Source: Candidatus Saccharimonadota bacterium (GTDB lineage Bacteria > Patescibacteriota > Saccharimonadia > Saccharimonadales > Saccharimonadaceae). Taken from it: DNA of 37,119 bases. Within the stretch, counting starts at the first letter, position 1. Each line of letters starts with the position of its first letter. This document shows positions 25,714 through 31,174 of this stretch, in pieces. Location: assembly GCA_028289095.1 (NCBI GenBank), contig JAQGGY010000004.1:1-37119 (forward strand), given 5' to 3'. The notes under the pieces were generated by a model. The model searched no databases, was not told the origin of the DNA, and saw only the letters and a list, made by a program, of their open reading frames with translations. A program made the position numbers and the translations under genes.

Positions 25714-26004
25714 TTAGTTAGACTTTGGCTTGATCGTATCCGTCACGCCGTTAAAAAAGTCTTCCAAAGGAGGGATAAATCCAGCGACTGAGCTAAGCAC
25801 CCATATCAATAACGCAACGACAATAGTGCCGCCTATGACACTACCTAATCCAAAAAAGACACCGCGAAAAAAATTCATTTTATAAATTTGCGCGCGACTA
25901 GTGTTAAAATCGTAAAACAATTCTTCGATGACATTTTTTCGTGCTTCGTTTTCATTTTTAACTTTTGATTTATCCGCTACTTTCTTTACATGACGTCCAA
26001 ACAT
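25714..26004 (-). CDS. Small membrane protein
   Basis: Single TM VFFGLGSVIGGTIVVALLIWVL; start set at MFGRHVKK with AAGGAG upstream. Confidence 0.65.
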   Translation of the reverse strand: MFGRHVKKVADKSKVKNENEARKNVIEELFYDFNTSRAQIYKMNFFRGVFFGLGSVIGGTIVVALLIWVLSSVAGFIPPLEDFFNGVTDTIKPKSN

Positions 26005-26029
26005 TGCCACCATCTCCTTATAGTAAGTT

Positions 26030-26055
26030 GGCACACCGCTTTATTGCGGTGTGCC
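26030..26055. other. Intergenic hairpin without U-tract
   Basis: GGCACACCGC-TTTATT-GCGGTGTGCC. Confidence 0.7.
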
Positions 26056-27590: not shown

Positions 27591-29048
27591 TTATATCCGT
27601 TCACGAATCAATTTTTGTGCGAGTGCAGGGTTTGCTTTCCCTTGGGATTTTTTCATCACCTGGCCGACAAGGAATCCTATGACTTTATCGTTACCGTTCT
27701 TGATATCTTCGATAGCTTTCGCACTCGTAGGATCTGCCAGTACTTCATCAACGATAGCGGCGATCGCACCCTCGTCACTGACTTGTAATAGATTCTTCTC
27801 GCGTGCAATATCTTCGGGCATCTTACCTATGCTATCCTCATTGAATAATGCCAGGAATATTTCTTTTGCACCTGTCGAACTCAGTTTATTGTCGCCGACC
27901 ATTTGGGATAGTTCGACTAATCGACGCGGACCAACAAGTCCCGATTCGACAGCAGTAATGTTCATGTCGTCCGCCGATGCCGATGAAAACCAGTTAAAGA
28001 CGCGTTTCGTCACCTCGGCATCATACCTATCATTAATCGCCTCCAGTGTTACCGCAACAGGTGCATTATTCAAAACAGTATTTACAACCGAGCTATCGAG
28101 CTGTAATGCCTGCCATTTTTCGCGGTATTCCGGTGGCAATATCGGCACGGTTTCTTGAATGTCGGCAATTTCCTGATCTGTCAAAATGATTGGTGGAATA
28201 TCGGCGTCTGGCATATAGCGGTAGTCCTGCGCATCCTCTTTTGAACGCTGCGAACTAGTCGTTTGCTTGGCATCATCCCAGCCACGAGTTTCTTGGACAA
28301 CTTTTTCACCTTTTTCAAGCATTGCAACTTGACGGCGGAATTCGTATTCAGCTGCTTTTTCAACGCTACGGAACGAATTAAGGTTCTTCACTTCGGCACG
28401 CGTTCCAAGTTCGTTAGCACCCTTTGGCGCAACTGAAACATTCACATCAAAACGCATATTTCCATGATACAAATCGCCACGTGTCACACCAGCATAAGTC
28501 ATCAGGTGATGTAATTCGGTGGCGTACGCTTTCGCCTGGGCGGCAGAATGAATATCTGGGTCAGAAACAATTTCGATCAGCGGCGTGCCAGCACGGTTTA
28601 AATCAACCAGGCTGTAATCGCCATAGTGAGTCAGCTTACCTGCATCTTCTTCCATATGTGCATGATGGATCCGAACACGAACGTTCGTACCATCTTCAAG
28701 TGGCGCATCGATGTAGCCCGCTAAGATAATCGGGTTATACATCTGTGTCGTTTGGTATCCCTTTGGTAGATCAGGATAAAAATAATGCTTTCGATCAAAC
28801 CGACTAACGCGGGCAATCGGTGCATTCAAAGCTTTACCGGCTTTAATTGCCAGATTGACCGCCTCTCGGTTAAGGACAGGTAGCATTCCTGGTAGGCCAA
28901 AATCGATAGGACTCACCACACTATTTGGTGACTTATCGCGCGCGTCATTATCGGCGCCACTAAACAATTTAGTTGCTGTCGCAAGCTGTACATGACATTC
29001 AATGCCGATTGTCATATCATATTTATTCAAAATTTCGTCAGTTACCAT
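27591..29048 (-). CDS. gatB: Asp-tRNA(Asn)/Glu-tRNA(Gln) amidotransferase subunit B
   Basis: IGIECHVQLATATKLFSGADND...FDRKHYFYPDLPKGYQTTQMYNPI. Confidence 0.98.
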   Translation of the reverse strand: MVTDEILNKYDMTIGIECHVQLATATKLFSGADNDARDKSPNSVVSPIDFGLPGMLPVLNREAVNLAIKAGKALNAPIARVSRFDRKHYFYPDLPKGYQTTQMYNPIILAGYIDAPLEDGTNVRVRIHHAHMEEDAGKLTHYGDYSLVDLNRAGTPLIEIVSDPDIHSAAQAKAYATELHHLMTYAGVTRGDLYHGNMRFDVNVSVAPKGANELGTRAEVKNLNSFRSVEKAAEYEFRRQVAMLEKGEKVVQETRGWDDAKQTTSSQRSKEDAQDYRYMPDADIPPIILTDQEIADIQETVPILPPEYREKWQALQLDSSVVNTVLNNAPVAVTLEAINDRYDAEVTKRVFNWFSSASADDMNITAVESGLVGPRRLVELSQMVGDNKLSSTGAKEIFLALFNEDSIGKMPEDIAREKNLLQVSDEGAIAAIVDEVLADPTSAKAIEDIKNGNDKVIGFLVGQVMKKSQGKANPALAQKLIRERI

Positions 29049-29470
29049 CAGATCGCTCCTATATCTTTCAACGCTTGTTTAAATCCAGCAATCGCACGTC
29101 GAGCGTCGTCGAATGACAAATGATGATCGGATTCGTGCGCAATTTGATTACGTAGTTTATGTGCGCCCCATACTGCATTAGCATTTGACCATGTGTCTTT
29201 GGCTGCTTTCATACGCTCGCCCATTGTCTGACCTTTTACGCCGCGCTCGCGAAGTGCTTGGTCTAATAATTTGTCAGCATTTAACACTGCCAGCACGCAG
29301 CCAGACTGATCGTCTTTGTTCAGTTGTTTTTCAATCGCCATCCATTTTAAACGGTACTTATTAACGTCAAGTTGCGTAGCACCTTTTCTGGTTAGAATCA
29401 TGACGGCAACCAGCAATGCGCCAATCACTAAAATACCCATTAAAAAGCCAAGTAGTGAATTCTCTTGCAC
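29048..29470 (-). CDS. Membrane-anchored HEPN-like protein in the gat operon
   Basis: N-terminal TM; helical domain ending in LRNQIAHE (R-x4-H at 29135-29152); TGATG overlap with gatB. Confidence 0.75.
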   Translation of the reverse strand: MQENSLLGFLMGILVIGALLVAVMILTRKGATQLDVNKYRLKWMAIEKQLNKDDQSGCVLAVLNADKLLDQALRERGVKGQTMGERMKAAKDTWSNANAVWGAHKLRNQIAHESDHHLSFDDARRAIAGFKQALKDIGAI

Positions 29471-29471
29471 G

Positions 29472-30875
29472 TTATTTGCCCTCCACTGATTTTGCTAATG
29501 CAAGTAAGTTTGCGTCCGTTCGGCGTTGACCGATTAGCTGCACACCAATCGGAAGTCCTGCGCTCGTGGCACCAGCAGGCACACTTATCGCAGGGAGTCC
29601 CGCAAGACTTGGGGGAACGGTCATAATATCAGCCAGATACATCTTTATAGGATCGGCCGTATTTTCACCCAAACCAAACGCTGGTGTCGGAGCGACAGGC
29701 GTCAATAAAACGTCATAAGTTTTGAATAAATCTTCATAAGCATCAATCAAAAGTGTGCGAGCTTTTTGCGCCTGCAAATAATACGCATCGAAGTAACCGC
29801 TAGATAAGACATAGCTGCCGATCATTATACGACGCTTGTTTTCAGTAACAAAGCCTTCGTCGCGTGTTCGTCCGTACAATTCGGCAAGCGTCTGCACACC
29901 TTCGGCGCGGTGACCATAACGGATACCATCGTATCGTGCCAGGTTACTGCTAACTTCAGCTGGAACGATAATGTAATACATTGCCAGCGCATATTTTACT
30001 ATTGGCAAACTGACTTCATCAACGGTATGTCCGGCAGCGCGTAATTTTTCGACGTACCCATTTACCTTGTCTTGCACTTCGCCGTCAACAGCATCTGTCA
30101 TTGATTCTTTAATAATTCCGATTTTTTGCCCAGGCTTTAATTCGTCCAGTGGTGAAAAGAAATCTGGCAGCGTTGTCATATCATTCACATCACGACCACT
30201 CATAATATCCATGACTAATTCGGCGTCGGCGATATCTTTTGTAAAACAACCAATCGTATCAGTACTACTTGCCATTGCGACCACGCCATAACGGCTGACC
30301 ATACCGTACGTAGGCTTGACACCAACGACGCCATTAAAACTAGCGGGTTGACGAATCGAACCGCCCGTATCCGTGCCGAGCGCAAATGAAACGACATCCA
30401 ATGCCGTTACGACAGCCGAGCCACCACTACTTCCACCTGCTACTTTCGTCTGATCAAAGGCATTTTTTGTTGGACCGAATGCAGAGTTTTCCGTACTTCC
30501 CCCATGCGCAAAAGCATCAAGGTTCGCTTTGCCGATACAAATGGCACCTTGCTGCTCTAGTTTTTCAACGGCAGTTGCTTGCAACGGCGCATCAAATTTT
30601 TCCAGCATACGGCTGGCAGCAGTTGTCGGCGCACCAAAAGCTAAAAAGTTATCCTTGGCAACGAATGGTACACCAGCCAAACGGCCAACGTCTTCACCAT
30701 TTTTTATGCGCGCATCAATAGCATCAGCACGCTCTAACGCACGTTCCGCGGTCACACTTAGTAGGGCATGGTATTCATCAGTACTTGTCGCGCGTTGCAA
30801 TGCATTTTCTACTTCACTACGAGCGGATGATTCCCCGCTTTTAATTCGATCGACGATATCAGAAATACGACTCAT
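29472..30875 (-). CDS. gatA: Asp-tRNA(Asn)/Glu-tRNA(Gln) amidotransferase subunit A
   Basis: Amidase signature GGSSGGSAVVTALDVVSFALGTDTGGSIRQPASFNGVVGVKPTYG. Confidence 0.98.
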   Translation of the reverse strand: MSRISDIVDRIKSGESSARSEVENALQRATSTDEYHALLSVTAERALERADAIDARIKNGEDVGRLAGVPFVAKDNFLAFGAPTTAASRMLEKFDAPLQATAVEKLEQQGAICIGKANLDAFAHGGSTENSAFGPTKNAFDQTKVAGGSSGGSAVVTALDVVSFALGTDTGGSIRQPASFNGVVGVKPTYGMVSRYGVVAMASSTDTIGCFTKDIADAELVMDIMSGRDVNDMTTLPDFFSPLDELKPGQKIGIIKESMTDAVDGEVQDKVNGYVEKLRAAGHTVDEVSLPIVKYALAMYYIIVPAEVSSNLARYDGIRYGHRAEGVQTLAELYGRTRDEGFVTENKRRIMIGSYVLSSGYFDAYYLQAQKARTLLIDAYEDLFKTYDVLLTPVAPTPAFGLGENTADPIKMYLADIMTVPPSLAGLPAISVPAGATSAGLPIGVQLIGQRRTDANLLALAKSVEGK

Positions 30876-31174
30876 TATAATACCTTTGGCACTTTCACTT
30901 GATTATTTGCAGATTCGGTCGACAACGCTAGCATCTGTTCGCGGGTGACATCAGTAGAAATGACGGCATCATCCCGCCAGACATTTTCTAAACCGGTCAC
31001 CTGATACGTCGGCTCGACACCAGTCGTATCTAACTCACCTAATTGTTCGATATATCCTAAAATATTACCGATATCGGTCTGCAGGCTGTCTAATTCATCA
31101 TCTGTTAGCTGCAAGCTACTTAATTGTGCCAGATGCTGCACATCATCACGAGATATAACTGTCATATGACCCAT
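30875..31174 (-). CDS. gatC: Asp-tRNA(Asn)/Glu-tRNA(Gln) amidotransferase subunit C
   Basis: GatC-like VQHLAQLSSLQLTDDELDSLQTDIGNILGYIEQL; adjacent to gatA. Confidence 0.95.
   Translation of the reverse strand: MGHMTVISRDDVQHLAQLSSLQLTDDELDSLQTDIGNILGYIEQLGELDTTGVEPTYQVTGLENVWRDDAVISTDVTREQMLALSTESANNQVKVPKVL

Follow-up and report, generated by a model that had tools for sequence, protein, structure and literature searches.

A gene between gatA and gatB in Saccharibacteria and other Patescibacteria encodes a predicted membrane-anchored HEPN-like protein

The DNA analyzed (the window) is a stretch of 37,119 nucleotides from a Saccharibacteria contig, on the minus strand of which an operon is read in the order gatC-gatA-X-gatB. 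Its flanking genes were identified with Pfam: gatC at 30875..31174 (GatC, 1.6e-19), gatA at 29472..30875 (Amidase, 7.6e-138) and gatB at 27591..29048 (GatB_N, 1.7e-110, and GatB_Yqey, 9.9e-34). X (29048..29470), which has homologues in relatives, was the subject of an original prediction describing a membrane-tethered, 140-residue HEPN-like protein placed between gatA and gatB with a 1-nt gap on the gatA side and a TGATG overlap (1 nt) on the gatB side; this placement is confirmed, and both junctions are operon-like. The reading frame itself is real: it starts with GTG, a Shine-Dalgarno-like GGAGGG read directly from the sequence (29479..29484, minus strand) lies 8 nt upstream, within the 3' end of gatA, and a homologue (L002) has ATG at the same codon. 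Scanning of the gatCAB operon for promoters and terminators gave matches not in excess of those in shuffled sequence.

The single N-terminal transmembrane (TM) helix that had been predicted is also found, as a hydrophobic stretch of residues 8-26 (GFLMGILVIGALLVAVMIL; 29393..29449, minus strand) with a 19-mer Kyte-Doolittle mean of 2.85, corresponding to helix 3-27 of the structural model. It contains no WP signature of the kind present in DUF4145-type membrane HEPN proteins. Among 60 homologues sampled phylum-wide, an N-terminal TM segment is present in 47 and absent from 13. The idea that an amphipathic N-terminal helix takes the place of the TM segment in the latter was dropped, as only 1 of 12 sequences beat its shuffles.

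Predicted fold and motif of X

AlphaFold models of X have pLDDT 90.5 with the order's sequences as input, and pLDDT 94.5 (pTM 0.78) with a phylum-wide alignment. The TM helix is followed by helices 36-51, 55-75, 83-89, 97-112 and 120-136, all of which except 83-89 make up an all-alpha four-helix core of HEPN type, the HEPN-like domain as a whole spanning residues 36-137 (29060..29365, minus strand). When both models were compared with the PDB by Foldseek, the top matches were HEPN-MNT toxins, AF0298 (2hsb) and the sacsin HEPN domain, with Las1 lower; nearly all of the ten best structures are HEPN proteins, mostly at probabilities of 0.8-1.0. Probability reaches 1.00 and TM-scores are 0.4-0.6, but E values are 0.05-0.2 and none is below 0.001. 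The two methods together point to a HEPN-like fold, as had been supposed. In sequence comparison no curated HEPN model scores above its cut-off for X or for the family members tested, the best for the window's X being RiboL-PSP (E 0.013; 15.9 bits versus a cut-off of 28.4), and PDB sequence searches with X found no meaningful match. Sub-threshold matches across the family are to Swt1 (13 members), RiboL-PSP, Cthe2314, pEK499 p136, DUF4145 (3e-4), Csm6 (5e-5) and CARF_HEPN (3e-6).

The R-x4-H motif is present in X as R107-N108-Q-I-A-H112 (29135..29152, minus strand), just as the original prediction had it. By itself the motif is weak evidence, since 0.22 matches are expected in X by composition alone; it is significant because it is conserved in divergent homologues. 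In a set of 88 of these, R107 is found in 84, N108 in 83 and H112 in 83 (phylum-wide, R107-N108-x3-H112 is retained in ~95%), together with H104 (87), D66 (86), W101 (85), G80 (83), D70 (78) and a K or R at position 74 (65). This set was used instead of an alignment (A2) prepared without three motif-lost members, whose "invariant" R, N and H were set aside.

In Anantharaman et al. 2013 (PMC3710099), the hallmarks of HEPN domains include a polar N, D or H after the R and an upstream conserved acidic residue, typically within Ex3[KR]. The polar N108 directly follows R107 in X, and the second, acidic motif is present as D70-x3-R74, with D replacing E, in helix 2 (D66...D70; 29261..29275, minus strand). 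Because its fold, its sub-threshold model matches, its R-N-x3-H block and its upstream D-x3-[KR] all agree with that description, X very probably belongs to the HEPN superfamily, within which its family, uncovered by any Pfam or NCBIfam model, would be new. Like the members treated there (HEPN-MNT toxins, AF0298, sacsin HEPN, Csm6/Csx1 and Swt1 HEPN), among which are its best structural neighbours, X is an all-helical domain of ~100 residues with R-N-x3-H on the penultimate core helix. It differs from them by family-specific invariants (W101, H104, D66, G-x-TMGER and a C-terminal LxDxGA), by scores under all curated cut-offs, by its housekeeping-operon context and by repeated loss of the motif with the gene kept.

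Three bacterial groups of membrane HEPN proteins are distinguished in the same source: DUF4145 with a WP-signature TM, Abi2/SWT1 after a TM and an N-terminal globular domain, and HEPN-2TM-Zn ribbon. X resembles these in that the HEPN domain is predicted on the cytoplasmic side of the membrane segment, but its one N-terminal TM is short and lacks WP, it carries no other domain and its gene lies in a gatCAB context; neither that context nor this architecture is among the membrane groups in the available part of PMC3710099. The closest solved structures belong to HEPN-MNT type VII toxin-antitoxin systems (8xdj, 8xeh, 7bxo, 8yuf), from which X differs by the lack of an adjacent MNT gene (its neighbours are gatC, gatA, gatB and a sugar NTP_transferase, PF00483) and by a vertical, single-copy, housekeeping distribution.

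Distribution of X and loss of its motif

The closest named matches are 82-71% identical, the window being a Candidatus Saccharibacteria contig, and the order gatA-X-gatB is found in 78 of 80 named Saccharibacteria loci. X is single-copy in all 41 order relatives; in G019 it is present as two fragments on two contigs. The genome G106, of the same order, has no X, and 18 bp separate its gatA from its gatB. With a broad profile and a phylum-wide sample, X is detectable in 177 of 287 Patescibacteria genomes and not in the other 110, versus 279 for GatB. In 60 phylum-wide loci, which are the stronger profile matches (weaker ones may show less linkage), gatA lies at most 500 bp upstream of X in 38 and gatB at most 1.5 kb downstream in 36; in 55, at least one of the two occurs somewhere within a ~12.5-kb stretch. 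An estimate from two targets, 12.5-kb stretches and ~0.9-Mb genomes gives fewer than 2 of 60 by chance. Where gatB has been relocated X usually remains by gatA, and the reverse is seen in several families. The gene order given in the original prediction is not confined to the window but widespread in the phylum.

Examples of X genes unlinked to gatAB lie in other translation-factor contexts: two, with extra N-terminal TMs, in pyrH-frr-X(-dnaE) (L091:6027-6614 and L117:5977-6561), and one adjoining pth, for peptidyl-tRNA hydrolase (L103:6076-6465). The X at L023:1501-1902, which is degenerate (RDQIARK) and has lost W101, sits beside a divergent gatA of 39% identity and is either a decaying second locus or an unusual copy.

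Non-synonymous divergence of X is low, little above that of gatA; pN alone was usable, dN/dS having been dropped owing to saturated synonymous sites. No relative of X was confirmed in viral contigs. A toxin-antitoxin or defence reading was rejected on these grounds together with the lack of an MNT partner and the single-copy, vertical pattern. Also rejected was a link between X and the loss of GlnRS: none of the 287 genomes has a GlnRS that passes the TIGR00440 cut-off, so that the comparison has no discrimination, and Patescibacteria seem to obtain their Gln-tRNA through GatCAB.

Within the window's own order, conservation of R and H, which holds over most of the phylum, fails in half of the copies: R-x4-H is missing from 59 of 118 X sequences (non-duplicate, two doubly fetched loci having been removed from the final counts). 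Among these 59, R is kept and H lost in 10, H is kept and R lost in 4, and both are lost in 45. On a GatB tree built by a quick method without bootstrap, motif state requires 10 parsimony changes, of which at least 5 are forced by branches with SH-aLRT of at least 95; an initial view of motif loss as a one-clade event (4 sequences) was overturned by this wider sampling. The gene nevertheless keeps its place: of the 59 motif-less copies, 58 are immediately flanked by gatA on one side and gatB on the other, versus 52 of 55 motif-bearing ones.

Comparison of motif-bearing and motif-less copies reveals two separable layers of conserved residues. The first is active-site-like, is kept together over most of the phylum and erodes together where R/H are lost: D70 falls from 100% (59/59) to 71% (Fisher 4e-6), T82 from 93% to 47% (5e-8), K105 from 98% to 51% (8e-10), N108 from 98% to 29% and E113 from 93% to 22%, these column-wise p values ignoring phylogeny. 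The second, comprising W43, D66, G80, W101, H104, L134 and G138, does not differ between the two sets (D66 is at 100% with the motif and 98% without), and the C-terminal LxDxGA tail also stays. Being kept regardless of the motif and in the same operon slot, this layer probably reflects a binding or tethering function. A lost motif need not mean an inactive protein, because in motif-less copies H104 with the nearby K108/K109 could make an alternative active site.

Possible role of X

Because the RNase signature was lost several times while gene and place stayed, X probably does something in the gatCAB operon beyond RNA cutting. The original prediction, which had read R-x4-H as a ribonuclease signature and proposed a membrane-anchored RNase or RNA-binding partner, is supported as to HEPN-like fold and motif, membrane anchor and gatCAB linkage; that X exists for RNase activity is only partly supported, given that gene, position and core outlast the motif. 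The reading preferred here, if at somewhat less than even confidence, is that the gatCAB operon of Patescibacteria has in X a conserved accessory gene, encoding a membrane-anchored HEPN protein that primarily binds a partner, with the RNase site second. In such a mechanism the N-terminal anchor would be followed by a cytoplasmic HEPN-family domain that works, probably as a HEPN dimer, on the inner side of the membrane. The conserved residues outside the catalytic site (W43, D66, G80, W101, H104 and the LxDxGA helix at the C terminus) would form a surface for one unchanging partner, with GatCAB or the tRNA it serves as the likeliest candidates, and through this contact Gln/Asn-tRNA formation would be held at the membrane or regulated there. 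A predicted HEPN RNase site (D70, K105, R107, N108, H112, E113) would be kept as well in most lineages, this genome among them, its activity being a second one that several lineages may have discarded without losing the protein. An adaptor with an RNase site is the simplest mechanism because it is consistent with both layers of constraint. Counting against this reading are the 110 genomes without X, although nearly all genomes have GatB, the close spacing of gatA and gatB in the X-less G106, the unlinked X genes, the 13 homologues without an N-terminal TM and the possible alternative active site in motif-less copies. A stronger version, in which X is a fourth, membrane-anchoring GatCAB component, derived from a recruited HEPN RNase that links RNA cleavage to the making of Gln/Asn-tRNA at the membrane and has repeatedly become a catalytically dead adaptor, is conceivable but doubtful.

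Equally doubtful, if still the best of the alternatives, is that X is primarily an active membrane-bound HEPN endoRNase, acting in tRNA or mRNA surveillance or as a switch to dormancy that responds to glutamine/tRNA status, with motif-less lineages being degenerate remnants or using the alternative site (H104 with K108/K109). The ~95% retention of R-N-x3-H in divergent homologues suits such an enzyme, as do the N after R and the upstream acidic residue, HEPN hallmarks in PMC3710099, and the residues that vanish with the motif (D70, K105, N108, E113) are those an active site would need. The same paper predicts RNA processing by membrane HEPNs on the inner side of the membrane and points out that AF0298-like HEPNs have an alternative histidine at the N terminus, AF0298 being among the best fold matches of X. 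Against this, about half of the order has lost the motif by different routes with gene, place and core kept over many families, and X has no MNT or other antitoxin-like neighbour.

A passenger role, in which X serves some unrelated housekeeping function at the membrane and is merely co-expressed with gatCAB in an order of old inheritance, is less probable again. It would accommodate the dispensability of X in many lineages that retain GatCAB, the X genes located elsewhere and the unrelated small membrane proteins that occupy the same slot in other genomes (a cyclophilin between gatA and X, a pilin-like protein between gatA and gatB), but not so readily the tendency of X, across many families, to stay with gatA if gatB has moved and with gatB if gatA has moved, nor the exact slot kept by 58 of 59 motif-less copies. 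That X is no HEPN protein at all but a generic bundle of four helices in which R-x4-H occurs by chance, as the unpassed curated cut-offs, the modest best Foldseek E values and the compositional expectation would allow, is highly improbable given that nearly all the best PDB matches are HEPN, that several independent HEPN models match across family members and that the R-N-x3-H block is strictly positioned and conserved.

A further comparison is with yeast mitochondrial GatFAB, a tRNA-dependent amidotransferase reported to be membrane-associated (PMC4027206); there, however, GatC is replaced by GatF, which lacks a membrane anchor domain, and there is no HEPN domain. The literature search found no paper joining HEPN, Patescibacteria and GatCAB, and HEPN and GatB are absent from the main text of a Saccharibacteria Tn-seq paper (PMC10633639) and of a second Patescibacteria paper. 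X would be a link, undescribed so far, that ties the HEPN RNase superfamily to the membrane and to a core pathway of translation, and the occurrence of motif-bearing and motif-less series in one order makes catalysis versus scaffold directly testable.

Other genes lodged around gatA and gatB

Further genes occur near gatAB. Several families have a second, longer paralogue (~200-215 residues) between gatB and dnaE (L066:8643-9275, L072:8544-9176 and L096:8987-9634; also L065, L069, L073, L080, L082 and L084), of which the three sequences inspected carry TM segments at the C terminus and lack R-x4-H; Pfam gave no match for the L066 copy. A membrane-anchored cyclophilin-type peptidyl-prolyl isomerase lies between gatA and X at L066:5431-6189, a slot shared by L072, L073, L080, L085, L089, L096 and L097. 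In X-less families (L294, L296, L305 and L306) the gatA-gatB gap is filled by another small membrane protein, which by eye resembles T4SS-pilin/VirB2. A gene with an MscS-like mechanosensitive channel domain is found beside gatB in many families (L066:8120-8668; also L072, L073, L079, L080, L094 and L097), and in the window itself a DUF5665 membrane protein is encoded at 25714..26034 (minus strand), adjoining dnaE.
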